From an uncultured Blautia sp. (GTDB lineage Bacteria > Bacillota > Clostridia > Lachnospirales > Lachnospiraceae), in assembly GCF_934424005.1 (NCBI RefSeq), contig NZ_CAKRXI010000015.1:1-64000 (forward strand): a stretch of 64,000 nucleotides of DNA, in the 5' to 3' direction. Of the stretch, positions 21,347 through 61,780 are shown one piece after another. The notes beneath the pieces were generated by a model. It was given only the letters and a program-made list of their open reading frames with translations, ran no database searches and was not told where the DNA came from. A program made the translations under genes and the position numbers. Each line of letters opens with the position of its first letter. Positions within the stretch are counted from its first letter, which is position 1.

Positions 21347-21645
21347 AAAAAAAAATCTCTCATCTCTACAGACTACTGTAAGAGACGAAAGACATCTGTC
21401 TTCGCGGTACCACTCTTATTTATGAACGGTTCATACACTCATGGGATACGGAATATTTTGTATAATTCTTATATCCTCTCCATATAACGGTGGATACCGT
21501 CTGCGCCTACTTTCCGGATATTCGTGAGTTCGGACAGATGCTCCAAGGCGAGTTCCATGACTTCTTTCTACTGTCTCACACCACCCGACAGTTCTCTGTG
21601 CTCCGGTCCTCATGTACTATTCCTCATCAAAGCATTTTGCATATT
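21347..21645 (-). promoter_or_regulatory. T-box leader of leuA (Leu, specifier CTC)
   Basis: On the minus strand a Stem I region (ATGAGGACCGGAGC, GAACTGTCGGGTGGTG) leads to a specifier loop GGAACTC, whose CTC codon (21550-21552) means leucine. Stem III follows, then the T-box AGAGTGGTACCGCG (21403-21416), and a terminator hairpin TCTCTTACAG/CTGTAGAGA with nine T (21347-21386). Uncharged tRNA-Leu should pair with specifier and T-box bulge and let transcription enter leuA. Confidence 0.93.
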
Positions 21646-27720: not shown

Positions 27721-27730
27721 AATTATCATA

Positions 27731-27801
27731 AGTGCAACTGGCTATCATACATTCGCTTAGACCCTGTAGTTTTGCGTCACCGGATTTCCCCGGCTATGCC
27801 C
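27731..27801 (-). promoter_or_regulatory. Class I cyclic di-GMP riboswitch aptamer (GEMM-I)
   Basis: On the minus strand the order is AGGGCATAGCCGGGG, AAATCCGG, TGACGCAAAAC, TACAGGGTCTAAG, then ATGATAGCCAGTTGCAC. The GACGCAAA core, the GGGTCTAAG segment and the ATGATAGCC segment are conserved GEMM-I features. A terminator follows at 27682-27720, so the second messenger should switch transcription of the two secreted proteins. The direction (on or off) cannot be read by eye. Confidence 0.88.
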
Positions 27802-27809
27802 TATTCAGT

Positions 27810-27838
27810 TTTATATGAAATTCACAAACATTTCACAA
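27810..27838 (-). promoter_or_regulatory. Promoter of the c-di-GMP-controlled secreted pair
   Basis: TTGTGA and TATAAA are separated by 17 bases. The predicted start lies at the 5' end of the aptamer. Confidence 0.68.
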
Positions 27839-46002: not shown

Positions 46003-46551
46003 TTAACTTTCGTATAACAGCATCAGAAGCATCTGTGCTGTTTCTACCATATTGGTTCCGGAATCCATACTTGATTTCTGGATATACCGGTATGCATCGT
46101 CCTCACTCAGGTGATTTCGCTGCATCAGCATCATTTTTGCATTGGATATATAATTCTGTTCTTTCTCGGAACGAAGCTTTGGTTTCTTTTTCTCTTTACG
46201 CCGCTTACGTTCCTGCTGTATGAGAATCATATTTACCGTATTGATCAGGTCACTGGCTTTCATTGGCATTTCTACTGACAGAATCGATGGTGGTACTTCA
46301 CATATCACCCTCGCAGACGCCAGAAGCAACATTTCAAAATCTTTTGGCATACACTCTGACAGATCCAGATAATTCATATCAGGAAGACGATGCCCACAGA
46401 TCAAAACACCATTTCCTAATTCAGATGCGCTGGAAAGAGCATTCGATGCAGTACTGCATACAGAGGCTACCGCTAATCCGTGGCGTTCCAGAACACTGCG
46501 GATTTTTCTGGCATCTTCTATTTTGGGTAATGCAATAACAATGCTGCTCAT
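46003..46551 (-). CDS. ANTAR RNA-binding antiterminator with degenerate receiver
   Basis: This 182-residue regulator has an N-terminal receiver-like domain in which the phosphorylated Asp is replaced (VLICGHRLPDM, Gly in its place) and the acidic pair is missing, so phosphorylation is unlikely. A Lys/Arg-rich linker (RKRRKEKKKPK) leads to a C-terminal ANTAR domain (YISNAKMMLMQRNHLSEDDAYRYIQ, then NMVETAQMLL). ANTAR proteins bind hexaloop hairpins in leaders and prevent termination. It lies 53 bp behind glnA and 18 bp before aspS, inside the nitrogen operon, and four nearby leaders have suitable hexaloops. Its signal is unknown. Confidence 0.9.
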   Translation of the reverse strand: MSSIVIALPKIEDARKIRSVLERHGLAVASVCSTASNALSSASELGNGVLICGHRLPDMNYLDLSECMPKDFEMLLLASARVICEVPPSILSVEMPMKASDLINTVNMILIQQERKRRKEKKKPKLRSEKEQNYISNAKMMLMQRNHLSEDDAYRYIQKSSMDSGTNMVETAQMLLMLLYES

Positions 46552-46604: not shown

Positions 46605-47912
46605 TTACAGGCGATACAGATATTCTGCAATTTCCCAGTCAGTTACCTGCTGTATATATCGCAGCCATTCATTTTTCTTGGCTGCAACATACTGTTTGCA
46701 GAACTCTTCTCCCAGCACGTCCTTTACCCATGTACTTTCCTCAAAATAGTCAATTGCCTCTTTCAGCGTTGACGGAAGATGCTCCGCCTGTTGTCCCTGC
46801 ATTGCAAGGTTTGATGATTTCGTCGGCGTGATCTTGTTTTTGATTCCATCCAGACCTGCTGCCAGGCAGATTGCCAGAACAACATACGGATTCGCGGAAG
46901 TATCAGGACTTCGAAGTTCTACTCTGATTCCTTCGCCTCTGGTAACCGGAATGCGAACAAGTGAATTCTGATTATTCTCTGTCCAGGTAAGTTCTGTCGG
47001 AGCATCATATCCTGGAACAAGTCGTTTGTATGAATTAACGATCGGATTCGTGATCAGTGCCATTTCCTTACTGTGTGCAAGCAGGCCTCCAATAAAATAG
47101 TAAGCCTCCTGGCTGAGTTCTCCATGATTTGACTGACTCTCAAACACATTCTTTCCGTCTTTAATCAGCGAAAACTGAATATGCATTCCTGATCCATTTA
47201 CTTCTGCCTTTGGTTTCGGCATAAATGTCGCATGAAGGCCATGTCTCTTTGCCACAATACGAACAGCCATCTTAAAAGTAGTAATGCAGTCCGCAATCTT
47301 ACGGATCTCGCCATAACGAAAATCAATTTCATGCTGAGCTGGTGCTGCCTCATGATGAGAGGATTCAACTTCCATTCCCATATCTTCCAATGTAAGCACC
47401 ATATCTCTTCTTGCATTTTCTCCAAGATCCAGCGGACTGATATCCAGATATCCGGCCTGCTCGTGTGTCACCGTTGTTGGATTTCCATTATCTTCTGTAT
47501 GGAACAGGAAAAATTCACATTCCGGATCAATGTAGCAGGTATAGCCCTCAGCCTGCGCTTTTCCGGCAACATTTTCCAGAATATATCTTGGACTGTTTTT
47601 GTATGGCGTTCCATCAGGAAAATACAGATCACAGATCATTCGTGCCACTTTTCCCTGCTGTGGACGCCACGGCAGGATTGCAAATGTATCAAGTACAGGT
47701 CTGAGATACAGATCTGCATCTTTTAATCCGGAGGTTCCTGCAATCTGTTCTCCATCTATCACACACTGATTATTCAACGCCCGGGGAAGTTCCCGAGCGG
47801 TTACAGCGATATTTTTGATTGCCCCAAACATATCGGTAAACTGAAGACGGATAAATTCTACGTCTTCATCCTCAACCATCTGTAATATTTCCTCTCTGGT
47901 ATAATTCCCCAT
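46605..47912 (-). CDS. glnA: Glutamine synthetase type I
   Basis: This 435-residue enzyme makes glutamine from glutamate, ammonium and ATP. The GSI-alpha type length and motifs are present: VDPECEF-like IDPECEFFLF, the NGSGMHIQ segment, and PGYDAPTELTW. The adenylation Tyr region of GSI-beta is absent, so control should be feedback and transcriptional. The ribosome site AAGGAGAG lies seven bases upstream. It is preceded by a promoter with operator-like repeat and an attenuator, and followed by the ANTAR gene. A second, type III enzyme is encoded at 57677. Confidence 0.96.
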   Translation of the reverse strand: MGNYTREEILQMVEDEDVEFIRLQFTDMFGAIKNIAVTARELPRALNNQCVIDGEQIAGTSGLKDADLYLRPVLDTFAILPWRPQQGKVARMICDLYFPDGTPYKNSPRYILENVAGKAQAEGYTCYIDPECEFFLFHTEDNGNPTTVTHEQAGYLDISPLDLGENARRDMVLTLEDMGMEVESSHHEAAPAQHEIDFRYGEIRKIADCITTFKMAVRIVAKRHGLHATFMPKPKAEVNGSGMHIQFSLIKDGKNVFESQSNHGELSQEAYYFIGGLLAHSKEMALITNPIVNSYKRLVPGYDAPTELTWTENNQNSLVRIPVTRGEGIRVELRSPDTSANPYVVLAICLAAGLDGIKNKITPTKSSNLAMQGQQAEHLPSTLKEAIDYFEESTWVKDVLGEEFCKQYVAAKKNEWLRYIQQVTDWEIAEYLYRL

Positions 47913-47943: not shown

Positions 47944-48032
47944 AAAAAAGGGGCGCACTTTCGGAGGGTTACCCTCCAAAAGAACGCCCTTGTTCATGCA
48001 GGTATTATAGCAACCTGCATGATCTTTGTCAA
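47944..48032 (-). promoter_or_regulatory. glnA leader: promoter, palindrome, hexaloop antiterminator and terminator
   Basis: TTGACA (48027-48032), 17 bases, TATAAT (48004-48009). The -10 box sits in the centre of a perfect inverted repeat CATGCAGGT/ACCTGCATG (47995-48021). Just downstream, GAAC-AAGGGC-GTTC (47982-47995) forms a hairpin with a six-base loop. It overlaps the 5' arm of a strong terminator (GGGCG ... CGCCC with inner GGAGGG/CCCTCC, T run at 47944-47949). The hairpin and terminator exclude each other. ANTAR-mediated antitermination is the likely mechanism. Confidence 0.82.
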
Positions 48033-48040
48033 CTCTCTTT

Positions 48041-49525
48041 TTACAGATTTGTATATCCCATCAGGGACTCATCAACAGCTCTTGCTGCCTCACGGCCCTC
48101 ACGGATTGCCCATACAACCAGCGACTGTCCCCGGTGCATATCGCCTGCCGTGAAGACTCTTGGTACAGAAGTTTCATAAGCTTCTGGTTTTGTTTCAACG
48201 TTTGTCCGTCCGGTAAGTGCTACTTTAAATGCATCTGTTACATACTTTTGGCTTCCCAGAAATCCAGCTGCGATCAGAACCACATCTGCCGGAATGACTT
48301 CTTCCGTTCCTTCTACCGGAACCATCATCATTCTTCCTGTCTTTTCATCTTTCTGACTTTTTAGTTTAACGATCTTCGCCTTGCAGACATTTCCTTTCTT
48401 ATCTGCAATAAACTCCGTAACCGTTGTCTGATATACACGCGGATCATGGCCAAACACTGCAATTGCCTCTTCCTGGCCATAGTCCGTTTTGAGGATTCTC
48501 GGCCACTCAGGCCATGGATTATTCGCTGCACGTTCTACCGGCGGCTTCGGCATCATTTCAAGCTGTGTAACAGATTTTGCTCCCAGGCGGATACTTGTTC
48601 CAACACAGTCATTACCGGTATCGCCACCACCGATCACAAGTACATGTTTATCTTTTGCAAGTTCATATGGCGTTTTTTCAAAATTGGAATCCAAAAGTGT
48701 CTTGGTGACTTTTCCAAGAAAATCTACAGCAAAGTAAATACCTTTTGCTTCTCGTCCCGGAACTTTGATGTCTCTCGGATTAGATGCTCCACATGCAAGG
48801 ATCACGCGGTCATATTTCTTAAGAAGTTCTTCCGCAGTGGTATCTTTTCCGACATTGGTATTCAGAACAAATTTCACACCTTCTTCTTCCATCAGATGAA
48901 TTCTTCTGTCTACGACAGATTTTTCCAGTTTCATATTCGGAATACCGTAACGGAGAAGTCCGCCAGGTCTGTCACTTCTTTCATAAACTGTAACACTGTG
49001 TCCTCTTCGGTTCAGTTGCTGTGCCGCTGCCAGACCGGATGGACCACTTCCGACTACTGCGATTGTCTTTCCTGTACGAACGCGTGGAATCTGTGGTTTT
49101 ACCCATCCTTCCTGCCACGCAGTTTCAATGATTGCTCTTTCATTTTCTTTTGTAGATACCGGCTCACTGTCCAGATTACAGGTACATGCCGCCTCACAAA
49201 GAGCCGGACACACTCTGGAAGTAAACTCCGGAAAACTATGTGTCTTGGAAAGTCTTAAATATGCCTGTTTCCAGTTTCCTGTATATACCAGATCATTTGT
49301 TTCCGGTACGAGGTTATGCAGTGGACAGCCGGAAGCCATTCCATTAAGCATCATACCTGACTGGCAGAAAGGTACGCCGCAGGCCATGCAGCGCGCCCCC
49401 TGTGTTTTCTGTTTTTCTTTGCTGAGAGGAGTCCGGAACTCATTGAAGTTGGCAATCCGGACCTTTGGCGGCAGCACTCTGGCTGTCTCTCTTTTATACT
49501 CTAAAAATCCTGTTGGCTTTCCCAT
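48041..49525 (-). CDS. gltD: Glutamate synthase small subunit
   Basis: This 494-residue NADPH-dependent subunit passes electrons to GltB. N-terminal cysteine clusters (RCMACGVPFCQSG and RVCPALCEAACTC) bind two [4Fe-4S] centres. An FAD motif VVGSGPSGLAAAQQ lies near residue 155 and an NADP motif VIGGGDTGNDCVG near 300, followed by the conserved TAGDMHRGQSLVVWAI. It follows gltB by 15 bp and is its co-transcribed partner. Confidence 0.96.
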   Translation of the reverse strand: MGKPTGFLEYKRETARVLPPKVRIANFNEFRTPLSKEKQKTQGARCMACGVPFCQSGMMLNGMASGCPLHNLVPETNDLVYTGNWKQAYLRLSKTHSFPEFTSRVCPALCEAACTCNLDSEPVSTKENERAIIETAWQEGWVKPQIPRVRTGKTIAVVGSGPSGLAAAQQLNRRGHSVTVYERSDRPGGLLRYGIPNMKLEKSVVDRRIHLMEEEGVKFVLNTNVGKDTTAEELLKKYDRVILACGASNPRDIKVPGREAKGIYFAVDFLGKVTKTLLDSNFEKTPYELAKDKHVLVIGGGDTGNDCVGTSIRLGAKSVTQLEMMPKPPVERAANNPWPEWPRILKTDYGQEEAIAVFGHDPRVYQTTVTEFIADKKGNVCKAKIVKLKSQKDEKTGRMMMVPVEGTEEVIPADVVLIAAGFLGSQKYVTDAFKVALTGRTNVETKPEAYETSVPRVFTAGDMHRGQSLVVWAIREGREAARAVDESLMGYTNL

Positions 49526-49540
49526 GTTTCCTCATCCTCC

Positions 49541-52500
49541 TTAATGCTTTGCTCCAATGCTTTCGTAAAATGCTTCCATCTGCGCCTGCTCACTTGTCAG
49601 TCCTTTTTCTTCCAGTTTGGCGCTGAGTGTGATCATCTTCTTATATTCATTTGGAATAAGTTTCTTAAAGTGCGGCAGATAATAGTCAAAGTCATCAAGT
49701 ACTTTTGTTCCCAGTTTAGAACCGGTAGCCGCAACATGGGCTTCGATCAGATCACGAAGTTCTTTTTTATCATATTTATTCTCTACTTTTTCAATAGAGA
49801 TCATTGCTTTATTAATATTCTTATACAGTTTGTTATCCACATCCAGCACGTATGCAATACCACCGCTCATACCTGCTGCAAAGTTCTTTCCGGTTCGTCC
49901 AAGGACTACAACACGGCCACCTGTCATATATTCACAGCCATGTTCACCAACACCTTCGACAACTGCATATGCACCAGAGTTACGAACTGCAAAACGTTCT
50001 CCTGCAACACCGTTGATAAAAGCATAACCGCTGGTAGCACCATAAAGGGCAACGTTTCCAATGATGATATTCTCTTCTGGTTTATAAGCTGCTTTTTCAG
50101 GTACTTTCACGATCAGCTTACCACCTGACAGACCTTTACCAAAATAATCATTACTGTCACCAGTAAGATTCAAGGTAAGTCCCTTAGGAATAAATGCACC
50201 AAAGCTCTGTCCGCCTGCTCCGTGGCAATTGATCACAATTGTATCATCCGGAAGTCCTGTTCCTGTCTGTCTGGTGATCTCAGCACCGAGGATCGTACCA
50301 AATGTACGGTCAGTATTAGTGACATCCACATCCAGTTCTACATGCTCAGCCTTAGATATTGCTCTCGCACATTTTTTGAGAAGGACTTTCTCATCCAGAG
50401 TCTTTTCCAGTTCGAAGTTATAAACAGCCTTCGGATCAAAAGTAACCTTCTGTCCGTTTCCTGCATATGGGTTATTCAGAATTGCACTGAGGTCCAGTTT
50501 GCCTTTATGTGGTTCTGCTGCAACTGCTTCTGCAGACTGTTTAAGAAGCTCAGTATGTCCAACCATTTCATCAACAGTACGAACGCCAAGACGTGCCATG
50601 TATTCTCGCATTTCCTGAGCAATAAATCTCATAAAGTTCTCTACGTATTCAGGTTTACCACGGAAACGTTTACGAAGCTCTGGATTCTGTGTTGCCACAC
50701 CGACCGGACATGTATCCAGATTACATACACGCATCATTACACAGCCCATAGTTACAAGCGGAGCGGTGGCAAATCCAAATTCCTCTGCTCCGAGAAGAGC
50801 TGCGATCACTACATCACGTCCACTCATAAGCTTTCCATCTGTCTCGATTCGTACACGGTTTCGCAGTCCGTTCATGATCAATGTCTGATGAGTTTCTGCC
50901 AGTCCAAGCTCCCATGGAAGTCCTGCATTGTGGATGGAGCTTCGCGGAGCTGCTCCTGTTCCTCCGTCATAACCGGAGATCAGAACTGTCTGTGCACCGG
51001 CTTTCGCAACACCTGCTGCGACTGTACCAACACCTGCCTCAGATACAAGCTTTACTGAAATGTCTGCATAAACATTAGAGTTTTTCAGGTCATAGATCAG
51101 CTGAGCCAGATCCTCGATTGAATAAATATCATGGTGCGGCGGTGGGGAGATCAGTGATACCCCCGGTGTTGAATGACGTGTCTTTGCAATCCACGGATAT
51201 ACTTTTTTAGCCGGAAGATGTCCACCTTCACCTGGTTTTGCACCCTGAGCCATCTTGATCTGGATTTCTCTTGCTGATACCAGATAACGGCTTGTTACTC
51301 CAAATCGTCCGCTCGCTACCTGTTTGATTGCAGAACAACGATCGTCTTTACTGCCGGCAGATGCAATACGTTCAGCACTTTCACCACCTTCACCTGTATT
51401 GGATTTTCCATGCAGATGGTTCATTGCAATTGCAAGTGTCTCATGTGCTTCCTGTGAAATAGATCCATAAGACATAGCTCCTGTCTTAAATCTTTTAACG
51501 ATCTCGTCAACACTCTCAACCTCTTCGATCGGAATAGCATTTTCCGGATAATTAAATTCCAGAAGTCCACGAAGAGCTCCATGACTTTCTTTGTCTACCA
51601 GCGCTGTATACTGTTTAAACAGATCATAGCTGCCTGTCCAGGTAGATTCCTGAAGCAGATGAATTGTCTGTGGATTGTACTTATGCTCTTCACCCTGGCT
51701 TCTCATCTTATGTGCACCGACACTGTCAAGAGTAAGATCATTATCAAGACCAAGCGGATCAAATGCTTCTGAATGCAGTTTTTCAACATTATCTTCAATA
51801 TCTTCCAGAGTAATTCCACCTACACGGCTTACAGTACCTGTAAAGTACTTATCGATCACATCCTGAGAAACACCGATTGCCTCAAATATCTGTGAACCCT
51901 GATAAGACTGGATCGTTGAGATACCCATTTTAGATGCAATCTTTACAATACCACTTAAGACTGCATGATTATAATCTTCTACAGCAGCATAGTAATCTTT
52001 ATCAAGCATACGATTATCAATCAGTTCACGTATCGTCTCAAGTGCAAGATACGGATTGATTGCACTTGCTCCATAACCAAGAAGTGTTGCAAAATGATGT
52101 ACCTCTCTTGGCTCTCCCGATTCCAGAATAATTGCGAGTGAAGTACTTTTTTTCGTTTTTACAAGATGCTGATGTACTGCGGAAACAGCCAGCAGTGACG
52201 GAATCGGCATATGATTTTCGTCTACTCCACGGTCTGAAAGTACAAGGATGTTTGCACCATCACGATATGCTTTATCAACTTCAACAAAAAGACGATCGAT
52301 TGCTCTCTCAAGCTTTGTACTCTTATAATAAAGGGTAGAAACAACTGCAACTTTAAAGCCTTCGTGATTCATGTTTTTGATCTTGAGCATATCTGTATTT
52401 GTAAGGATCGGATGCACGATCTTCAGCACATGACAGTTTTCAGGCTGCTGCACAAGTAAATTTCCGTCTTTTCCAACATATACACTGGTAGAGGTAACAA

Positions 52501-54100
52501 TTTCTTCACGAATTGCATCAATTGGCGGGTTTGTAACCTGTGCAAAAAGCTGTTTGAAATAGTCAAACAACGGACGATGCTGATCAGAAAGAACTGCCAG
52601 AGGAGTATCTACACCCATGGCACCGATACTTTCTGCACCATTTAAGGCCATATTTCTGATTGAAGTACGGTACTGTTCATAGGTATATCCAAATGCTTTC
52701 TGCAGACGTGCACGCTGCTCCGGTGTATATTCTTCCATACGTACATTCGGAATTTTGATATCTTTCAGTTTAACCAGATTGCTGTTCAGCCATTCTCCAT
52801 ACGGCTGCATAGCTGCATATTTTTCTTTAAGTTCATCATCATCCACTACCTTACCTGCAACGGTATCTACCAGAAGCATTTTTCCAGGATGAAGTCTCTC
52901 TTTCAGAACAATCTTCTCTTCTGGGATTGGCATAACACCAACTTCTGAAGACAGGATCATGTAGCCGTCAGAGGTGATATAATATCTTGACGGACGCAGA
53001 CCATTACGGTCAAGTACAGCTCCCATGACATCACCATCAGAGAAAAGAATAGACGCCGGTCCATCCCATGGCTCCATCATAGTCGCATAATACTGATAAA
53101 AATCTCTCTTATCCTGTGAGATTGTATCATTGTTAGCCCACGGTTCCGGAATAGTGATCATCACTGCAAGTGGGAGTTCCATTCCACTCATTACAAGGAA
53201 TTCCAGAGTATTGTCAAGCATAGCTGAGTCAGATCCCTTACGGTCAATGACCGGAAGAACCTTATGAAGCTGTCCCTTCAGATATGGAGATTCCATATTT
53301 TCTTCTCTGGCAAGCATCTTATCTGCATTTCCACGGATTGTATTGATCTCACCATTGTGAACCATAAAACGGTTCGGATGAGCTCTCTCCCAGCTCGGAT
53401 TTGTATTCGTACTGAATCTCGAATGAACCATCGCAATTGCTGATTCATAATCAGGGTTCTGAAGATCAGCAAAGAATGTTCTCAGCTGTCCTACCAGGAA
53501 CATACCTTTGTATACGATCGTACGGCTGCTCATAGATACTACATAAGTATTGTCGTTACTCTGTTCAAACTCACGACGTGCAATATAGAGCATACGGTCA
53601 AACGGAAGTCCTTTTTCTACCTCTTCCGGTTTTTTGATAAATGCCTGCATAATGTAAGGCATACATTCTCTGGCTTTATGTCCAAGCACCTCCGGGATTA
53701 CCGGAACAGTTCTCCAGCCAAGAAGTTCCAGACCTTCTTTTTCCACAATGATCTCGAACATTTTCTTTGCCTGTGCACGTTTGATCTCATGCTGTGGGAA
53801 AAAGAACTGTGCAATACCATATTCTCTTTCTCCACCAATATCAAAGCCCTCTTTCTTACAGGCTTTTTTGAAAAATTTATGTGAGATCTGCAGAAGGATT
53901 CCGACACCGTCACCGGTCTTACCTTCTGCATCTTTACCTGCACGGTGCTCCAGATGTTCTACGATTCTAAGCGCATTGGCAACCGTATCATGGGTCTTTT
54001 TACCTTTTATATTTACAACCGCACCGATGCCGCAGTTATCATGCTCGAATTCGCGACGGTACAGTCCCTGATCTTCTCTCCTTACTTCCTGCATGGTCAT
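49541..54100 (-). CDS. gltB: Glutamate synthase large subunit
   Basis: This 1519-residue glutamine amidotransferase makes two glutamates from glutamine and 2-oxoglutarate. The mature N-terminus is expected at Cys23 (DNCGIGAVV) after removal of a 22-residue propeptide. The domain order is class II amidotransferase, central domain, FMN-binding synthase domain (PPPHHDIYSIEDLAQLIYDL), the [3Fe-4S] cluster (CNLDTCPVGVATQ) and the C-terminal beta-helix (GxxGG repeats). The ribosome site AAAGGA precedes the ATG. The gene lies 74 bp after pyrG, and a stem without T run sits between them, so read-through from the pyrG promoter is likely. Confidence 0.97.
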   Translation of the reverse strand: MTMQEVRREDQGLYRREFEHDNCGIGAVVNIKGKKTHDTVANALRIVEHLEHRAGKDAEGKTGDGVGILLQISHKFFKKACKKEGFDIGGEREYGIAQFFFPQHEIKRAQAKKMFEIIVEKEGLELLGWRTVPVIPEVLGHKARECMPYIMQAFIKKPEEVEKGLPFDRMLYIARREFEQSNDNTYVVSMSSRTIVYKGMFLVGQLRTFFADLQNPDYESAIAMVHSRFSTNTNPSWERAHPNRFMVHNGEINTIRGNADKMLAREENMESPYLKGQLHKVLPVIDRKGSDSAMLDNTLEFLVMSGMELPLAVMITIPEPWANNDTISQDKRDFYQYYATMMEPWDGPASILFSDGDVMGAVLDRNGLRPSRYYITSDGYMILSSEVGVMPIPEEKIVLKERLHPGKMLLVDTVAGKVVDDDELKEKYAAMQPYGEWLNSNLVKLKDIKIPNVRMEEYTPEQRARLQKAFGYTYEQYRTSIRNMALNGAESIGAMGVDTPLAVLSDQHRPLFDYFKQLFAQVTNPPIDAIREEIVTSTSVYVGKDGNLLVQQPENCHVLKIVHPILTNTDMLKIKNMNHEGFKVAVVSTLYYKSTKLERAIDRLFVEVDKAYRDGANILVLSDRGVDENHMPIPSLLAVSAVHQHLVKTKKSTSLAIILESGEPREVHHFATLLGYGASAINPYLALETIRELIDNRMLDKDYYAAVEDYNHAVLSGIVKIASKMGISTIQSYQGSQIFEAIGVSQDVIDKYFTGTVSRVGGITLEDIEDNVEKLHSEAFDPLGLDNDLTLDSVGAHKMRSQGEEHKYNPQTIHLLQESTWTGSYDLFKQYTALVDKESHGALRGLLEFNYPENAIPIEEVESVDEIVKRFKTGAMSYGSISQEAHETLAIAMNHLHGKSNTGEGGESAERIASAGSKDDRCSAIKQVASGRFGVTSRYLVSAREIQIKMAQGAKPGEGGHLPAKKVYPWIAKTRHSTPGVSLISPPPHHDIYSIEDLAQLIYDLKNSNVYADISVKLVSEAGVGTVAAGVAKAGAQTVLISGYDGGTGAAPRSSIHNAGLPWELGLAETHQTLIMNGLRNRVRIETDGKLMSGRDVVIAALLGAEEFGFATAPLVTMGCVMMRVCNLDTCPVGVATQNPELRKRFRGKPEYVENFMRFIAQEMREYMARLGVRTVDEMVGHTELLKQSAEAVAAEPHKGKLDLSAILNNPYAGNGQKVTFDPKAVYNFELEKTLDEKVLLKKCARAISKAEHVELDVDVTNTDRTFGTILGAEITRQTGTGLPDDTIVINCHGAGGQSFGAFIPKGLTLNLTGDSNDYFGKGLSGGKLIVKVPEKAAYKPEENIIIGNVALYGATSGYAFINGVAGERFAVRNSGAYAVVEGVGEHGCEYMTGGRVVVLGRTGKNFAAGMSGGIAYVLDVDNKLYKNINKAMISIEKVENKYDKKELRDLIEAHVAATGSKLGTKVLDDFDYYLPHFKKLIPNEYKKMITLSAKLEEKGLTSEQAQMEAFYESIGAKH

Positions 54101-54174
54101 TTATCCTTTCTATCTGTGACAGGAATGAAACAAAACTTTTTCTCATCCTGTCTCACTCCTTTTATTTTTTATTC

Positions 54175-55806
54175 CTAATTTTGTGCCTGTCGGCTCAGTT
54201 TCAGCTTTGCATATTCATCTGCGGCTTTTACAAATCCACGGAACAGTGGGTGTGCATGGTTCGGTCTTGATTTAAATTCCGGATGTCCCTGTGTTCCTTC
54301 ATAAAATGGATGATCTTTAATCTCTATCATCTCTACGATATGTCCGTCCGGTGAAGTTCCTGCAATCGTCATTCCTTTCGCTGCAAGTTCTTCTCGATAT
54401 GCATTGTTTACCTCATAACGATGTCTGTGACGTTCCTGAATTTCTTTCTTTCCAAAAAGTTCAAGTGCTCTGGAACTGTCAGCCAATACACACGGATAAC
54501 TTCCAAGTCTCAACGTACCGCCCAGATCTTCTACGCTCTCCTGATCCGGCATCAGTGCAATTACCGGATGTTTGGTTGCAGGATCCAGTTCTATACTGTT
54601 CGCATCTTCATATCCCAGAACATGTCTTGCGAATTCAACAATTGCCATCTGCATGCCAAGGCAGATTCCAAGATATGGAATCTTGTGTACACGGGCATAC
54701 TGTGCTGCCAGGATCATACCTTCGGTACCTCTGTTTCCAAATCCACCCGGAACCAGAATACCGTCTACTTTATGAAGCATCTGATCCAGATTCTTTTCAT
54801 TCAGTTCTTCAGAATCGATCCATGTGATCTCTACCTTTGCTTTGCATGAAATCCCACCATGTTTCAATGCTTCCACAACACTCAGATATGCATCGTGAAG
54901 CTGTGTATATTTTCCTACCATGGCAATATTTACAGTGCTTTCCGGATTGCGCAGGTCATTGACCATCTGCGTCCATTCGGTAAGATCCGGTTTACGGTTC
55001 TCCAGTCTTAAAGATTCCAGCACCACATCTGCCAGTTTTTCACGCTCCATGGCAAGAGGTGCTTCATAAAGATATTCTACATCAAGATTCTGCAGCACAT
55101 GGCTGACCGGTACATTACAGAATAGTGCAATCTTTCCTTTGATTTCATCAGTCAGTGGATGCTCACTTCTGCATACCAGAACATCCGGCTGAATTCCCAT
55201 TCCCTGAAGTTCTTTTACACTGGCCTGGGTCGGTTTTGTCTTCATCTCTTCAGATGCTTTCAAATAAGGAATCAGTGTTACATGAATCAGAATCGCGTTG
55301 TCATGTCCCACATCATGCTGGAACTGACGAATAGACTCAAGAAACGGCTGACTTTCAATATCGCCAACAGTTCCACCAACCTCAATGATCGCAATCTTTT
55401 CTTCATCCTGTTCCTTCGCTCTGTAGAAGCGGCTCTTTATCTCATTGGTGATGTGAGGGATGACCTGCACAGTACCTCCGCCAAAGTCTCCATGACGTTC
55501 TTTCTGTAATACAGACCAGTAGACCTTTCCAGTCGTTACATTCGAGTTTTTATCAAGGCTCTCATCAATAAATCTCTCATAATGTCCAAGATCCAGATCT
55601 GTCTCTGTACCATCATCTGTGACAAAAACCTCTCCATGCTGGATCGGATTCATGGTACCCGGGTCAATATTGATATAAGGATCAAACTTCTGCATTGTTA
55701 CCTGATATCCACGTGCTTTCAGAAGTCTTCCAAGGGAAGCTGCTGTGATTCCTTTACCAAGGCCGGATACAACACCACCTGTAACAAAAACGTATTTTAC
55801 TGCCAT
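54175..55806 (-). CDS. pyrG: CTP synthase
   Basis: This 543-residue enzyme aminates UTP to CTP with glutamine. The synthetase domain begins [14 protein letters not shown], and the class I glutamine amidotransferase domain has the nucleophile in GICLGMQM near residue 380 and His-Glu in QGHPEF near residue 515. AGGAGG lies eight bases upstream of ATG. It has its own promoter and an attenuator-like leader, and is followed by gltB, an uncommon neighbour. The leader is not the reiterative-transcription type known in Bacillus pyrG. Confidence 0.97.
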
Positions 55807-55839
55807 TATCGATTTCCTCCTCCATTTTATATCTTAAAC

Positions 55840-55953
55840 AAAAGGCGCCAGAAGCAGACAAAGGGGCAATTCCCTCTATCGCTTCTGACGCCTTTGTCAG
55901 ATAAGATCTTAAAATATGAACTTTACTATACCTTATTTTTTTTCGTTTGTAAA
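55840..55953 (-). promoter_or_regulatory. pyrG leader: promoter, hexaloop hairpin and terminator
   Basis: TTTACA (55948-55953), 17 bases, TATAGT (55925-55930). The RNA then has TCTGAC-AAAGGC-GTCAGA (55884-55901), a six-pair stem with a six-base loop. It overlaps the 5' arm of a terminator, AAAGGCGTCAGAAGC (55881-55895), which pairs with GCTTCTGGCGCCTTTT ending at 55840. The T tract is short (TTTTGTTT). The arrangement matches the glnA, glnN and amt leaders. Confidence 0.8.
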
Positions 55954-55972
55954 TATGTAATTTCTATAATTT

Positions 55973-57382
55973 TCAACATCCGCAGTCAATTTTTTTGTTC
56001 AGTTCTGCTTCCACATCCATCGGATATTTACCATCAAAGCAGGCTTTACATAATGGAAGGTGACCTGCCATTCCCTCCAGGTAATCACTCTGCATATATC
56101 CAAGAGAATCTGCTCCGATCATCTCACAGATTTCCTGTGTACTGTGATTGCTGGCAATCAGCTGATCATTAGATGGTACATCTGTTCCAAAATAGCATGG
56201 ATGCAGGAACGGCGGAGAACTGATCCGTACATGTACCTCCAGTGCACCTGCTTTTTTAAGCATACGGATAAGGTTTGCAATCGTTGTTCCACGGACAATG
56301 GAATCATCCACCAGAACGATTCGTTTGCCTTTGACCGCAGAATCAAGAACACTGAGTTTCAAATGTACACTTGACTCTCGTTCTTTCTGCGTTGGTTTGA
56401 TAAATGTTCTTCCAATATAGCTGTTCTTATAAAAAGCAAAGCCAAACGGTATACCCGATTCTTCCGAATATCCCTTTGCTGCCGGGATACCAGATTCCGG
56501 CACACCGGTAACAAGATCAGCCTCTACCGGATAGGATTTTGCAAGTGATTTACCGCCTCGGATACGAGCATCATAAATCTTCACTCCATCCATCATACTG
56601 TCCAGTCTTGCGAAATAAATATATTCGAATACACAATGGGCATGTTTACCGGTACTCAATTCTTTATTAGACTCAATACCATTTCTGGAGATCGTAATCA
56701 TCTCTCCTGGCTCAATATCTCTTATAAACTCAGCTCCCACAGAGGTAAGTGCACAGCTCTCAGATGCAAGTACATAAGTATTATCGCGTTTTCCAAGACA
56801 CAATGGTTTCAGTCCAAGCGGATCCCTGACACCAATCAATTTTCTCGGACTCATGATCACAAGAGCATAACCGCCTTTCAGCTTACGGGCAGTTTTGAGA
56901 ACAGCCTCTTCTACTGTTTTGGAGTGTACTCGCTCACGTGCTACATGAAAAGCAATGACTTCTGAATCAGTCGTTGTATGGAAAATCGCTCCATTCTGAA
57001 TCAGTTCCCATTTCAGTTCCGGGGTATTGATCAGATTTCCGTTATGTGCCAGTGCAAGCGTCCCTTTAATATAGGACAATACCAGAGGCTGTGCATTTTC
57101 TGCCACAGATGCGCCTGTCGTAGAATAACGTACATGTCCGATTCCGAGATCACCTTCCATATTCCGTATGGTATCTTCCCTGAGAACTTCACTTACCAGT
57201 CCCAGATTCTTATGAAACTGGACGTTGCCACGCTCTCCGTCTGTTCTGGAAACTGCAAGTCCGCAAGACTCCTGTCCACGATGCTGAAGTGATGTAAGGC
57301 CATAATAAATGGATGGAACAACATTTCCTCCATCCAGATCATAAATACCAAATACACCACAGGCTTCCTTAATTCCTGCCAT
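55973..57382 (-). CDS. purF: Amidophosphoribosyltransferase
   Basis: This 469-residue enzyme takes the amide of glutamine to make phosphoribosylamine, first step of purine synthesis. It is the Bacillus type: a seven-residue propeptide before Cys8 (EACGVFGIYD), a class II glutaminase domain, a PRPP-binding loop (VLVDDSIVRGTT) near residue 355, and cysteines for a [4Fe-4S] cluster (CVFEY, HPCYFG, LCKACF). The gene has its own promoter and lies upstream of pyrG on the same strand. Confidence 0.96.
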   Translation of the reverse strand: MAGIKEACGVFGIYDLDGGNVVPSIYYGLTSLQHRGQESCGLAVSRTDGERGNVQFHKNLGLVSEVLREDTIRNMEGDLGIGHVRYSTTGASVAENAQPLVLSYIKGTLALAHNGNLINTPELKWELIQNGAIFHTTTDSEVIAFHVARERVHSKTVEEAVLKTARKLKGGYALVIMSPRKLIGVRDPLGLKPLCLGKRDNTYVLASESCALTSVGAEFIRDIEPGEMITISRNGIESNKELSTGKHAHCVFEYIYFARLDSMMDGVKIYDARIRGGKSLAKSYPVEADLVTGVPESGIPAAKGYSEESGIPFGFAFYKNSYIGRTFIKPTQKERESSVHLKLSVLDSAVKGKRIVLVDDSIVRGTTIANLIRMLKKAGALEVHVRISSPPFLHPCYFGTDVPSNDQLIASNHSTQEICEMIGADSLGYMQSDYLEGMAGHLPLCKACFDGKYPMDVEAELNKKIDCGC

Positions 57383-57443
57383 CAGAATTTCCTCCCATTA
57401 TCAATGTTTATCAATGTGAATTTCACCTGTGAATCTATCTGAA

Positions 57444-57471
57444 ATTATAATAGAAGATCGACTTTTGTCAA
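57444..57471 (-). promoter_or_regulatory. purF promoter
   Basis: TTGACA (57466-57471), 16 bases, TATAAT (57444-57449). The leader has ATTCACAGGTGAAATTCAC and a direct repeat ATTGATAA but no terminator. It is divergent from the glnN promoter. Confidence 0.82.
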
Positions 57472-57549
57472 CCCTTGTCCCTTCAAAAATCCATACAAAT
57501 AAATTCATTTACCCAAACAAAAAATTTGAAATTTTTTTCACAAAAATTA

Positions 57550-57628
57550 TTGACATCCTGATTTTTTTGTGTATACTACATCACATAAGCAACGGCGCTT
57601 TGGATTAAATTCCAAGGCGCCTTTTTTG
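57550..57628 (+). promoter_or_regulatory. glnN leader: promoter, hexaloop hairpin and terminator
   Basis: TTGACA (57550-57555), 16 bases, TATACT (57572-57577). The RNA begins near 57584 and forms AAGC-AACGGC-GCTT (57587-57600), with a six-base loop, which overlaps the 5' arm of the terminator GGCGCTTTGGA/TCCAAGGCGCC (57594-57621) with six T. A start in the terminated state and release by an RNA-binding protein are likely. This region and the purF promoter fill the 290-base gap. Confidence 0.85.
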
Positions 57629-57676
57629 TTTATCTGAGGATAATAAGATTAATGGAATCGAAAGGAGATTTTAATT

Positions 57677-59788
57677 ATGGCACAGAGCATTCCTGAACTT
57701 TACGGCAGTCTTGTTTTTAATGACAAGATCATGCGTGAGAAATTACCAAAAGATATGTACAAAGCGCTGAAAAAAACAATCGAGAACGGCACTCATCTTG
57801 AACTTGATGTTGCCAACTCCGTAGCAGTTGCCATGAAAGAATGGGCACTGGAACATGGTGCTACTCATTATACTCACTGGTTTCAGCCAATGACTAACTT
57901 TACAGCAGAAAAACATGACAGTTTCATTTCCCCTACAGTAGATGGACAGGTGATCATGGATTTCTCCGGCAAAGAACTTGTAAAAGGTGAACCGGATGCT
58001 TCCAGTTTTCCGTCAGGCGGTCTTCGTGCTACATTTGAAGCAAGAGGTTATACAGCCTGGGATCCTACTTCACCGGCATTTATTAAAGACCGTACACTTT
58101 ACATCCCGACAGCATTCTGTTCTTACAGCGGCGAGGCACTGGATAAGAAGACACCTCTTCTTCGTTCCATGGATACTCTGAATAAAGAAGCAGTGAAAAT
58201 TCTTCGTCTTCTCGGAAATACCGAAGTTAAACACATCAACACAACCGTAGGTCCTGAACAGGAATACTTCCTGGTAGACAAAGATCTTTATAATAAGAGA
58301 AAAGACCTGATTTTCTGTGGACGTACACTGATCGGTGCTCCGGCTCCAAAAGGTCAGGAAATGGAAGATCATTATTTCGGAACTCTGAAGCCTCGTGTAT
58401 CTGCTTATATGCACGATCTTGATGAAGAGCTCTGGAAACTTGGAATTCCGGCCAAAACAAAACATAATGAAGTTGCTCCTGCTCAGCATGAGCTGGCTCC
58501 GGTATTCGATACAACAAACGTTGCAGTCGATCATAACCAGCTGACAATGGAAATCATGAAAAAAGTTGCTGCCAAGCATAATATGGTATGCCTGCTTCAT
58601 GAAAAACCATTTGAAGGTATCAACGGAAGTGGTAAACACAATAACTGGTCCATGAGTACAGATACCGGCGTCAACCTTCTTGATCCTGGCAAAACACCTG
58701 CTGAAAATACTCAGTTCCTGGTATTTCTTGTAGCTGTTATTAAAGCAGTTGATGATTATGCAGATCTGCTCCGTATTTCCGTTGCAAGTGCAGGAAACGA
58801 CCATCGTCTTGGTGCTAACGAAGCTCCGCCGGCAGTTGTTTCTATCTTCCTTGGAGATGAACTGACAGAAGTCCTCAAAGCAATCGAAAACGATGAATTC
58901 TTCGCAGGACACGGTGCTGTTCAGATGGATATCGGTGCAAAAGTACTTCCACACTTTGTAAAAGATAATACGGACAGAAACCGTACTTCTCCGTTTGCAT
59001 TCACAGGAAACAAATTCGAATTCCGTATGCTTGGATCTTCTTCCTCTGTTGCAAATCCGAACATTATTCTCAACACTGCTGTTGCAGAAGTTCTGCGTCA
59101 GTTCTATGAGAAACTGAAAGATGTTCCTGCAGATGAAATGGAATCTGCCATACATGAATTACTGAAACAGACAATCATCGACCACAAACGTGTTATCTTC
59201 AATGGAAACGGTTATACCGATGAATGGCTGGAAGAAGCAGAAAAACGTGGTCTTTATAATCTGGTATCCACACCGGATGCACTGCCGCACTTCATCGATG
59301 AAAAGAATGAAAGACTTCTTACAAACCATCATATTTTCACAGATGCAGAGCTGCATTCCCGTTATGAGATCAAACTGGAAAACTATGTAAAAACTCTTCA
59401 CATTGAAGCAAATACACTGGTTGAGATCATTCAGAAAGATCTTCTTCCAAGTATTACTACATATATGGAAAAACTTGCTCAGACAGCGTCTCTCAAGAAA
59501 TCTGTTGTTCCGGATATCTCTGTATCCACAGAAGCATCTCTTCTTTCCAGACTGACTGAGCTTGCCGAAACAATGACCAAAGATCTGGAAACACTGAAAG
59601 CAGATACTGCAATGGCCGAATATGAAGTTGGCAAAGATCTTCTCAAGAGTGCAAAGCTCTACCAGAGCGTTGTTCTCACCGATATGGAAAAAGTTCGTGT
59701 TTCTGCGGATGCAGCTGAAGCGCTCATTCCGGATTCTATTCTTCCATATCCAACCTATGGCAAACTGTTATTCTCCATCTCCGACTGA
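57677..59788 (+). CDS. glnN: Glutamine synthetase type III
   Basis: This 703-residue type III enzyme is much longer than GlnA. The family motifs are present: GGLRATFEARGYTAWDPTSPAF near residue 120, VGPEQEYFLVD, KHNEVAPAQHELAPVF, HEKPFEGINGSGKHNNWS and the later VASAGNDHRLGANEAPPA. It makes glutamine in the cytoplasm. The start has AAAGGAG nine bases upstream. It is transcribed alone from an attenuated promoter. The type III enzyme is typical of gut Bacteroides and Clostridia. Coexistence with a type I enzyme suggests division of labour by nitrogen supply. Confidence 0.96.
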   Translation: MAQSIPELYGSLVFNDKIMREKLPKDMYKALKKTIENGTHLELDVANSVAVAMKEWALEHGATHYTHWFQPMTNFTAEKHDSFISPTVDGQVIMDFSGKELVKGEPDASSFPSGGLRATFEARGYTAWDPTSPAFIKDRTLYIPTAFCSYSGEALDKKTPLLRSMDTLNKEAVKILRLLGNTEVKHINTTVGPEQEYFLVDKDLYNKRKDLIFCGRTLIGAPAPKGQEMEDHYFGTLKPRVSAYMHDLDEELWKLGIPAKTKHNEVAPAQHELAPVFDTTNVAVDHNQLTMEIMKKVAAKHNMVCLLHEKPFEGINGSGKHNNWSMSTDTGVNLLDPGKTPAENTQFLVFLVAVIKAVDDYADLLRISVASAGNDHRLGANEAPPAVVSIFLGDELTEVLKAIENDEFFAGHGAVQMDIGAKVLPHFVKDNTDRNRTSPFAFTGNKFEFRMLGSSSSVANPNIILNTAVAEVLRQFYEKLKDVPADEMESAIHELLKQTIIDHKRVIFNGNGYTDEWLEEAEKRGLYNLVSTPDALPHFIDEKNERLLTNHHIFTDAELHSRYEIKLENYVKTLHIEANTLVEIIQKDLLPSITTYMEKLAQTASLKKSVVPDISVSTEASLLSRLTELAETMTKDLETLKADTAMAEYEVGKDLLKSAKLYQSVVLTDMEKVRVSADAAEALIPDSILPYPTYGKLLFSISD

Positions 59789-59820
59789 GAATAAGAGAGT
59801 ACATTGATAATTTCACAATG

Positions 59821-59920
59821 GTAAAACCGGGGGATGTCATTATGAACATGAACTACTTCATAATTCATTATCGATTTCCTCATCCATTAATCACACGATA
59901 CAAGACATCCCCTGTTTTAC
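59821..59920. other. Three-stem structured element between glnN and amt
   Basis: Arms GTAAAACCGGGGGATGTC (59821-59838) and GACATCCCCTGTTTTAC (59904-59920) pair over 16 bases with one bulge. Inside are ATTATGAA/TTCATAAT (59839-59864) and TATCG/CGATA (59869-59900), so it folds as a three-way junction. It may be a structured RNA, the 3' end of glnN mRNA or a short terminal-repeat element (MITE). No target duplication is visible, and no T run follows. Confidence 0.55.
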
Positions 59921-59977
59921 ATATATATTTGATTCGTAAAGGCGCGAGAATGATTTTTCATCATTCCCGTGCCTTTT
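59902..59977 (+). promoter_or_regulatory. amt leader: promoter, hexaloop hairpin and terminator
   Basis: A possible promoter is AAGACA (59902-59907), 16 bases, TATATT (59924-59929). Then TTCGT-AAAGGC-GCGAG (59933-59948, with two G-U pairs) forms a six-base loop hairpin. It overlaps the 5' arm of the terminator AAAGGCGCGAGAATGAT/ATCATTCCCGTGCCTTTT (59938-59977), which is followed by T-rich sequence. The architecture is the same as in glnA, glnN and pyrG. Confidence 0.75.
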
Positions 59978-60037: not shown

Positions 60038-61780
60038 ATGGACTATTCATCAGTAAACACAATCTGGGTACTTTTAGGTGCCGCGCTTGTCTTCTTTATG
60101 CAGGCAGGCTTCGCTATGGTAGAGACTGGCTTTACCAGAGCAAAAAATGCAGGTAACATCATTATGAAAAACCTTATGGACTTCTGTATTGGTACTCCTA
60201 CCTTCTGGATTGTCGGATTTGGTATCATGTTTGGAGCCGGAAACGGATTCTTTGGAAAGATTGGTGGTATTGCCACTGAAGCAAACTATGGTTCCGCAAT
60301 GCTTCCTGACGGTGTTCCGTTCTGGGCATTCCTGATCTTCCAGACAGTGTTCTGTGCAACTTCAGCAACAATCGTCTCAGGAGCAATGGCTGAACGTACT
60401 AAGTTTTCTTCCTACTGTATCTACAGCTTCCTGATCAGCCTGATTGTTTACCCTGTATCCGGTCACTGGATCTGGGGCGGCGGTTTTATCAGCCAGATGG
60501 GATTTCATGATTTTGCTGGTTCCTGTGCCGTACATATGGTTGGTGGTGTTGCAGCCTTTATCGGTGCCATCATCCTTGGACCTCGTATTGGAAAATATTC
60601 CAAGAGCGGTAAATCAAAAGCTATTCCTGGACACAACCTTACCATCGGTGCTTTAGGTGTATTCATCCTCTGGTTCTGCTGGTTCGGATTTAACGGTGCA
60701 TCTACTGTAAGCATGGAAGGTGATGCAATCGTAACAGCAGGTAAGATTTTTGTAACTACCAACCTTGCAGCTGCTGTTGCTACAGTTACTGTTCTTATCA
60801 TCACATGGATAAGATACAAAAAACCAGATGTTTCTATGTCACTGAACGGATCTCTTGCAGGTCTTGTAGCTATCACAGCAGGTTGTGATACTGTTTCACC
60901 TACATCTGCTGCTATCATTGGTATCATCTCTGGTTTTGTAGTTGTATTCGGTATTGAATTTATTGACAAAGTGCTTAAAGTCGATGACCCGGTTGGTGCT
61001 GTTGGTGTACATGGTTTAAATGGTGCATTCGGAACTCTCGCTGTTGGTCTTTTCTCAGATGGTACAGGCACAGAATGGAAAGGTCTTCTTGTTGGCGGTG
61101 GATTCCATGGCTTCGGTGTTCAGTTTATCGGTATGATCATTACAATCGCATGGGTTGCTGTAACTATGACCATCATCTTCCAGGCGATCAAACATACTGT
61201 TGGTCTCCGTGTAACTGCTGAAGAAGAAATCGAAGGTCTTGATTCCAAAGAACACGGTCTTACAAGTGCTTACGATGGATTTGTTGTACATGATACAATG
61301 ACAGTTCCGGCACCTATGGGTGTTACCAAAAAATCTGTTTCTTCAAATACTTCCGCAAATGTTGCACCTGCTGAAGTTGCTGACACCATTCCTGAACTTC
61401 CAAGAGAAGGCGTACATAAACTGACAAAAGTTGTTATCATCACACGTCAGAGCAAACTTGAAGAATTCATGCATGCAATGAACGAAATCGGTGTTACCGG
61501 TATCACTATTACAAATGTTATGGGATGTGGTGTACAGAAAGGTGCCCGCTCCTACTACCGTGGTGTTGAAATGGATATGAACCTGCTGCCAAAGATTAAG
61601 ATTGAGATTGTTGTCAGTCTGGTACCAGTCAAAACAGTTATTGACACTGCTAAAAAAGTTCTTCATACCGGCCAGTATGGTGACGGCAAGGTATTCGTAT
61701 ATGATATCGAAAATGTTGTTAAGATCCGTACCGGTGAAGAAGGATTCGAGGCACTTCAGGACACACAGCCTCTTGAATGA
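60038..61780 (+). CDS. amtB: Ammonium transporter fused to a PII (GlnK) domain
   Basis: This 580-residue protein joins an Amt/Mep/Rh channel of 11 transmembrane segments (residues about 1-400; family motifs [15 protein letters not shown] and [20 protein letters not shown]) to a complete PII protein (about 460-575). The PII part starts [17 protein letters not shown], the T-loop is [26 protein letters not shown] and the end has [21 protein letters not shown] normally is a separate protein that blocks AmtB; here channel and gate are tied, through a roughly 50-residue linker. Ribosome site GAGAGG, nine bases. No separate glnK gene is nearby. The leader carries an attenuator. Confidence 0.95.

Follow-up and report, generated by a model that had tools for sequence, protein, structure and literature searches.

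Can a single small hairpin, placed at or near the start of a transcript, serve as a complete target for an ANTAR protein? This question is raised by a 64,000-nucleotide (nt) stretch of DNA from an uncultured Blautia sp. (contig NZ_CAKRXI010000015.1, positions 1 to 64,000; termed here the window), in which the leaders of pyrG, glnA, glnN and amt each contain a hairpin whose six-base loop (hexaloop) has A at position 1 and G at position 4 (A1/G4). A sequence-only reading of the window had described these four hairpins and proposed them as ANTAR targets. They are present as that reading wrote them; moreover, in 4/4 leaders the hexaloop and the 3' strand also serve as the 5' arm of an intrinsic terminator, as it had claimed and as folding agrees. 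These leaders are probably transcription attenuators through which an ANTAR protein controls a nitrogen/glutamine regulon. Computed support comes from mutually exclusive folds, conservation, covariation, predicted promoter position, the lack of a second, upstream hexaloop (termed P1), co-occurrence with ANTAR genes, and regulon content; the start sites, ANTAR binding, the direction of control and the signal are proposed from these. The earlier observation is confirmed, and its ANTAR interpretation is supported at the level of sequence analysis. The features in question are as follows (promoters are scored out of 12):

47982..47995, minus strand: glnA leader hexaloop hairpin GAAC-AAGGGC-GTTC (putative antiterminator), from sequence; conserved in relatives
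47948..47991, T run to about 47942, minus strand: competing intrinsic terminator of the glnA leader, from sequence, folding and model match
48004..48032, minus strand: predicted glnA promoter TTGACA-17-TATAAT, 12/12, ending 8 nt before the stem
55884..55901, minus strand: pyrG leader hexaloop hairpin TCTGAC-AAAGGC-GTCAGA, from sequence
55841..55895, minus strand: competing intrinsic terminator of the pyrG leader, from sequence and folding
55925..55953, minus strand: predicted pyrG promoter TTTACA-17-TATAGT, 10/12, ending 23 nt before the stem
57587..57600, plus strand: glnN leader hexaloop hairpin AAGC-AACGGC-GCTT, from sequence
57594..57621, plus strand: competing intrinsic terminator of the glnN leader, from sequence and folding
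57550..57577, plus strand: predicted glnN promoter TTGACA-16-TATACT, 11/12, ending 9 nt before the stem
59933..59948, plus strand: amt leader hexaloop hairpin TTCGT-AAAGGC-GCGAG, with a U-G closing pair, the weakest of the four, from sequence
59938..59976, plus strand: competing terminator of the amt leader, with one mismatch, from sequence and folding
59902..59929, plus strand: promoter-like site of amt, AAGACA-16-TATATT, 9/12, ending 3 nt before the stem

At Rfam gathering cut-offs no family matched at the four leaders. In the mechanism proposed here, RNA would start a few nucleotides before the hexaloop hairpin in glnA, glnN and probably amt, and about 16 nt before it in pyrG, so that the hairpin would form early in the nascent RNA. 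If unbound, it would be overtaken by the terminator, which would absorb the loop and 3' strand. At nitrogen shortage the ANTAR protein encoded beside glnA (a pseudo-receiver plus ANTAR protein of the NitR kind) would bind the hexaloop; the bound hairpin would stay, and transcription would pass. A single hexaloop would suffice for each leader, the textbook upstream P1 being absent, and the pseudo-receiver might perhaps take its signal from glutamine synthetase or PII.

From folding and alignment, the overlapping hairpin is predicted to exclude the terminator. The best predicted structure from the predicted start is the terminator in 4/4 leaders, with the hexaloop as a weaker alternative: predicted minimum free energies for glnA, pyrG, glnN and amt are -31.0, -42.2, -21.9 and -21.3 kcal/mol, versus -16.8, -23.4, -6.6 and -5.3 kcal/mol when the hexaloop is enforced. 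The hairpin by itself is predicted to contribute no more than -1.6 to -6.8 kcal/mol and would therefore have to be stabilised to prevail. When growing prefixes of the RNA are folded, the hexaloop is best at 22-26 and 34-40 nt in glnA (with another fold at 30), at 34-58 nt in pyrG (preceded by a small, different hairpin), at 22-30 nt in glnN and at 22-34 nt in amt; the terminator or its upper part wins at 46 nt (glnA), beyond 58 nt (pyrG), at 34 nt (glnN) and at 40 nt (amt).

Conservation and covariation in relatives

Relatives were taken from the 80 best of 310 loci that contain a related ANTAR gene (counts often include the window too). The glnA gene lies upstream of the ANTAR gene in 79/80, the remaining locus (L054) being cut by a contig end, and the order pyrG-gltB-gltD-glnA-ANTAR is kept in 36/80, many others being cut short. 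In the 80 loci plus the window, a script that recognizes gapless terminators (and that misses the amt leader of the window) finds an A..G.. hexaloop on the terminator arm before 47/76 glnA, 34/40 pyrG and 7/8 glnN genes, before 2/42 gltB and 0/2 amt genes, and before 0/52 gltD genes. Three loci in which no pyrG was seen (L035, L040, L060) have a leader of gltB's own. An AANGG[C/T] hexaloop precedes glnA in 48/75 loci; as counted from the list, the glnA leader is present in 36/41 loci with a measured upstream gap of more than 102 nt and in 0/18 with a shorter one, as would follow if glnA is co-transcribed with gltD or pyrG where it lies shortly after one of them. L007, with the loop AAGGAC, is one of the five wide-gap loci that lack it.

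The sequence-only reading held that the stems differ while the loop is kept, and named loss of the loop in homologous leaders as grounds for abandoning the ANTAR interpretation. In relatives the loop AANGG[C/T] and a C-G closing pair recur while the stems covary. Among 109 sites picked by loop and terminator only (A or G allowed at position 1, A or C at position 2, G4-G5 fixed; the total still includes false positives, most of them pyrG coding sequence ahead of gltB), 102 have A1, and the 5' strand, which played no part in the pick, pairs at positions 1-4 in 95, 98, 92 and 103 of 109, with exchanges among G-C, A-U, U-A and G-U at stem positions 3 and 4. A pick that allowed A or G at position 1, with G4 fixed, gave A1 in 77/80 matches from the bacterial family. 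In an alignment of 63 non-redundant leaders, restricted to those with 4 or more stem pairs (for which reason the 109-site count is the fairer one), both sides of a pair had changed in 100 cells versus 45.0 (standard deviation 7.3) after shuffling, and the covariation score was 0.627 versus 0.297 for the best slid register; the terminator likewise covaries far above shuffled and slid controls.

Regulon content and the ANTAR protein

The taxonomic look of the window is that of Blautia, and the closest ANTAR relatives found are from Blautia (92 and 90 % identity). On its minus strand lie aspS, the ANTAR gene, glnA, gltD, gltB and pyrG, with purF upstream of them; on its plus strand lie glnN and then amt. 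The names gltB, gltD, aspS and purF are presumed (gltD also from gene order), as is the 'type I' label of glnA:

46003..46551, minus strand: ANTAR protein gene, proposed regulator, 182 residues, pseudo-receiver plus ANTAR (Pfam PF03861, E 4.9e-15)
46605..47912, minus strand: glnA, presumably type I glutamine synthetase (Pfam)
48041..49525, minus strand: gltD-like gene, presumed, and by gene order, also in relatives
49541..54100, minus strand: gltB, which we take to be the glutamate synthase large subunit, 1519 residues
54175..55806, minus strand: pyrG, CTP synthase (Pfam)
57677..59788, plus strand: glnN, type III glutamine synthetase (GSIII; Pfam)
60038..61780, plus strand: amt, ammonium transporter with a fused P-II domain (Pfam)

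A covariance model of the terminator fold, built from the 63 leaders (including the window pyrG, glnN and amt leaders), matches exactly the four leaders in the window at E<=1. At that threshold there are 117 matches in the window plus the 80 loci, nearly all at such leaders, and 122 in whole genomes, 20/20 of which have matches (these genomes were chosen for carrying related ANTAR loci). A family sample comprises 150 genomes from the family of G001, in which L001 lies; 84 of them have a match at E<=1e-3, giving 139 in all. For inspection of the genes behind them, 60/122 and 80/139 matches were fetched from the tops of the lists, skipping some contig ends and loci already included. The 80 family matches were not filtered by gene, and 72 of them have an open reading frame (ORF) of at least 100 residues behind them: glnA 14, GSIII 10, gltB 8, pyrG 7, asnB 7 and amt 6; PII, class II amidotransferase, amino-acid binding protein, circularly permuted ATP-grasp, ATP-binding cassette (ABC) ATPase and diaminopimelate aminotransferase, 2 each; and purF 1, gdh 1 and six other single ones. 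(Names stand for one member per cluster and are partly presumed.) The set of 60 adds GSIII, pyrG, asnB, amt and PII, carA 2, purF 1 and gdh 1, together with 4 ornithine/gamma-aminobutyrate (GABA)-type aminotransferases, amino-acid transport genes and others; from it, 20 sites were dropped by eye (19 at <=27.8 bits, plus L121, a GSIII-type leader with a miscalled ORF), and other low scorers with a relevant-looking gene were kept, so that these counts lean towards nitrogen genes. A model search of the kind called for by the sequence-only reading thus recovers leaders before glnA, GSIII, gltB and pyrG and before untrained genes as well, the training set having contained one amt leader and no asnB, purF, carA, PII or gdh leaders.

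That reading had drawn a regulon joining ammonium uptake, two glutamine synthetases, glutamate synthase and, unexpectedly, CTP synthase. The glutamine synthetases and amt do have leaders, whereas gltB has no hexaloop leader of its own in the window, where it starts 74 nt behind pyrG. The CTP synthase leader is likewise real but need not be called unexpected: because the pyrG-gltB-gltD-glnA-ANTAR order is kept and other glutamine amidotransferase genes (asnB, purF and carA in relatives) carry the leader, the membership of pyrG is less odd.

Several further leaders were seen along the way. Two complete hexaloop-terminator units stand in series before amt in L225 and L237, with loops 112 and 75 nt apart. 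A leader of the same type lies just upstream of aspS-like genes (L029:10752-10825, L030:4921-4994, L069:3924-3979, L075:3937-3991), and a circularly permuted ATP-grasp gene is repeatedly found behind one (L114, L189, L214, L305). Model matches in L132 and L152 precede what we take to be a cytidylate-kinase-like gene (that of L152 has no NCBIfam match), and in L197 a single hexaloop leader precedes a eutA-like gene that is broken in the assembly, the genome's one ANTAR match being on another contig. Upstream of purF in the window is a 12/12 promoter-like site (57444-57471, minus strand) with no model match there; the purF-like genes of L115 and L218 do have the leader. Elsewhere in the window, Rfam finds a T-box leader at 21378-21639 (minus strand; RF00230, 120.7 bits) and a c-di-GMP-I riboswitch at 27730-27810 (minus strand; RF01051, 61 bits).

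The presence of leaders follows that of ANTAR genes. In the family sample a leader is found in 83/131 ANTAR-bearing versus 1/19 ANTAR-lacking genomes (Fisher p 1.1e-6, uncorrected for relatedness), and in a class-level sample in 29/73 versus 3/75 (p 5.5e-8, likewise uncorrected; one of the 73 ANTAR matches is below cut-off). The family exception, G154, has a contig that ends inside glnA, so that the neighbouring gene is not covered. As a rule there is one ANTAR match per ANTAR-bearing family genome (128/131; the other 3 have two, with one of the second matches below the Pfam cut-off).

The AlphaFold2 model of the window's ANTAR protein (mean predicted local distance difference test score 90.9, predicted template-modelling score 0.67) consists of a receiver-like domain followed by a bundle of helices at the C-terminus, and its top Foldseek matches are EutV bound to RNA (6ww6, template-modelling score 0.65 by query), EutV and Rv1626. 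Aligned to two EutV-like proteins, it has Gly and Leu-Pro in place of the receiver's phospho-acceptor Asp and acidic pair. The G4-pocket residues K149, E160 and M172 (EutV numbering; RNA contacts as listed in the excerpt of PMC8934654 used here) are kept in 50/50 aligned proteins, in which position 164 is Tyr in 19, Phe in 17 and His in 14. In the class sample, Q168 and G175 occur in 18/18 aligned ANTAR proteins and R or K is common at 142, 143 and 147; this alignment omitted L257, and L263 and L267 showed no glnA adjoining the ANTAR gene.

One hexaloop or two, and the rival explanations

In relatives, with promoters scoring at least 10/12, the -10 box lies <=15 nt before the stem in 45/46 glnA, 6/7 glnN, 2/26 pyrG and 0/2 gltB leaders, the promoters of glnA (45/46) and GSIII (6/7) being predicted to end 5-11 nt before it; among the family matches this is so in 37/50, the other 30/80 having lacked such a promoter or stem. 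The sequence-only reading had placed the hairpins close to the RNA 5' end and named starts downstream of the hairpin as a second ground for abandoning its interpretation; promoters are predicted upstream of the hairpin, and close to it for glnA and glnN, which agrees with that reading. A P1-like hexaloop (A..G.., at least 4 pairs) within 60 nt upstream was found in 5/90 and 5/65 leaders, versus 8.1 and 9.6 % of random windows. As a positive control, P1 hairpins of 4-5 pairs were found by eye in 4/9 stretches of three eut loci, preceding eutP/eutA-like genes of L291 and L292 (L293 had none); an automatic hairpin-terminator finder had given nothing convincing in these loci, and the control was therefore read by eye. 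Hence the absence of a second hairpin seems real, and the earlier claim of one hexaloop per leader is borne out for the family as far as predicted promoters allow. Among class-level matches, 5/20 have a P1-like hexaloop, a convincing one in the case of two GSIII leaders (L296, L312), so that the single form may be derived, on the evidence of few cases. (In the source genome of L296 no ANTAR domain was found.) The glnA leaders L270, L272 and L281, from other class genomes, have one strong hexaloop and a longer 5' stretch.

A broader proposal is somewhat favoured: that a single 5'-end hexaloop is a complete ANTAR antiterminator; that, family-wide, one pseudo-receiver ANTAR protein with altered contacts runs a global nitrogen/glutamine regulon; that the promoter is placed so that P1 is dispensable, the hairpin being the first RNA out of the polymerase; and that the P1-bearing class-level GSIII leaders (L296, L312) represent the older state.

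A number of observations weigh against these interpretations. EutV needs both hexaloops in vivo (PMC3369931, PMC8934654, in excerpt). It also needs A1 in the loop, and therefore leaders with G at that position (3/80 family matches, L074 glnA and L058 pyrG) count on this side. The EutV contacts R142, K143, K147, R168, R175 and R177 are Q, N, N, Q, G and N in the window protein, and among the 50 aligned proteins R168 is replaced by Gln in 50, R175 by Gly in 45, R177 by Asn in 49, K143 by Asn in 43, K147 by Asn in 43 and R142 by Gln or Glu in 44. Predicted pyrG promoters end 16-70 nt before the stem in 24/26 leaders, and the amt leader has the lowest model score (22.2 bits, E 0.11). Three class genomes without a detected ANTAR gene have leaders: that of G204 precedes an amidotransferase gene and that of G281 a GSIII gene, and behind that of G208 no ORF was found. 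In 48/131 ANTAR-bearing family genomes there is no match at E<=1e-3, at which the filters lose weak matches, and the genomes behind the co-occurrence counts are related and may be incomplete.

The leader RNA also has a rival register. In a pattern-free look that took the earliest hairpin with 4 or more pairs downstream of the -10 box (a rule that favours early-ending hairpins), the hexaloop came first in 27/45 glnA but only 1/8 glnN leaders; register-shifted triloops of the same bases (e.g., CAAAG-GCG-CTTTG) did so in 13/45 and 5/8, and the remaining 5/45 and 2/8 gave another hairpin or none. Picking the longest stem at the terminator start gave the hexaloop in 19/37 glnA and 5/8 glnN leaders, 19/56 glnA leaders without a gapless terminator having been dropped. 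All 27 of the glnA hexaloops from the pattern-free look have A1, A2, G4 and C6; loop conservation alone, however, is weak evidence, given that a terminator 5' arm would favour A1, A2 and GGC too. The hexaloop is a covarying, loop-conserved fold, yet one with a competitor.

The frequency of these shifted hairpins fits a very improbable explanation: that the hairpin is a by-product, in which an A-rich, GC-started terminator arm yields AANGGC and finds its 5' complement by chance, the leaders being plain terminators or constitutive attenuators. In nearly all 63 aligned leaders the U tract pairs with the first two loop positions and the 3' arm with GGC, and an A..G.. hexaloop is so placed at 45/1426 other terminator-like sites of the window and 80 loci (nine of the 45 look by eye like additional leaders of this kind). 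Yet the 5' strand lies outside the terminator and nevertheless covaries with the 3' strand, the matches mostly precede nitrogen genes, and leader presence tracks the ANTAR gene. The plain-terminator reading was set aside, after the background count, on covariation and ANTAR co-occurrence.

Two further explanations retain a functional hairpin. One, that these are ANTAR targets with an overlooked second hexaloop (because transcription starts farther up, or because P1 has an unusual loop size), is improbable: promoters are predicted only, pyrG leaders are roomy (gaps 13-70) and the class-level P1 cases above lean its way, but P1-like hexaloops are no commoner than the random-window rates just given, and, with a start 6-7 nt after the -10 box, the consensus promoters of most glnA and glnN leaders would leave room for only about 1-5 nt of RNA ahead of the stem. 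The other, that something else reads the hairpin, is quite improbable; this could be a ligand or an RNA-binding protein other than ANTAR, or a change in the 5' strand through stuttering or a shifted choice of start site as the RNA begins. Bacillus pyrG shows such behaviour at its RNA 5' end; pyrG is among the genes here, and in glnA, glnN and amt the 5' strand begins a few nucleotides from the predicted start. Against this stand the co-occurrence with an ANTAR gene, as a rule one per genome, and the longer 5' ends of pyrG and gltB leaders that have the same hairpin.

Relation to known ANTAR systems

ANTAR nitrogen regulons are already known, and the single 5'-terminal hexaloop is a variant. 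In the excerpts of the papers cited in this section, ANTAR targets are defined as dual hexaloops, which adjoin nitrogen genes including those of glutamine/glutamate synthases and ammonium transporters (PMC3369931, PMC3369936). Like the dual-hexaloop targets of EutV/eut, NasR/nasF and AmiR/amiE (Ramesh et al. 2012, PMC3369931), the leaders described here have an A1/G4 hexaloop, a conserved closing pair, a hairpin that excludes a terminator, nitrogen genes, and a regulon over several operons; unlike them, they have one hexaloop, which sits at the predicted RNA 5' end or close to it, with a loop that is mostly AANGG[C/T]. NitR, an ANTAR protein of Clostridium saccharobutylicum, is said to induce glutamine synthetase/glutamate synthase genes upon nitrogen limitation (PMC6316151), and a C. 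thermocellum ANTAR gene is discussed likewise (PMC4676874). As cited there (Stutz 2007, in PMC6316151), NitR resembles the present case in being tied to glutamine/glutamate synthase genes and in antitermination under nitrogen limitation; the leader structure, single hexaloop and wider gene set are what differ here, though overlap with leader details of the 2007 work is possible. In BglG/SacY/LicT antitermination, too, one protein-stabilised hairpin, the ribonucleic antiterminator (RAT) RNA, excludes a terminator (PMC3369936), but the protein family, RNA shape and signal are others; the two are set apart by description rather than by sequence.

The closest solved structure is the EutV-RNA complex (PDB 6ww6; PMC8934654), whose G4-pocket residues are kept here; EutV, however, is phosphorylated and dependent on both hexaloops in vivo, whereas the present protein has no phospho-acceptor Asp and differs at six RNA contacts. 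In that structure the dimer contacts one hexaloop, the minimal binding motif being a single hexaloop with two kept for function, and its authors ask why two hairpins are needed if the dimer holds one. Published target searches (PMC3369931, PMC8164766) demanded two stem-loops, a criterion by which single-hexaloop leaders would be missed. Natural single-hexaloop leaders make the question of why two hairpins are needed directly testable, and those described here also offer a specific circuit by which common gut bacteria would control nitrogen.

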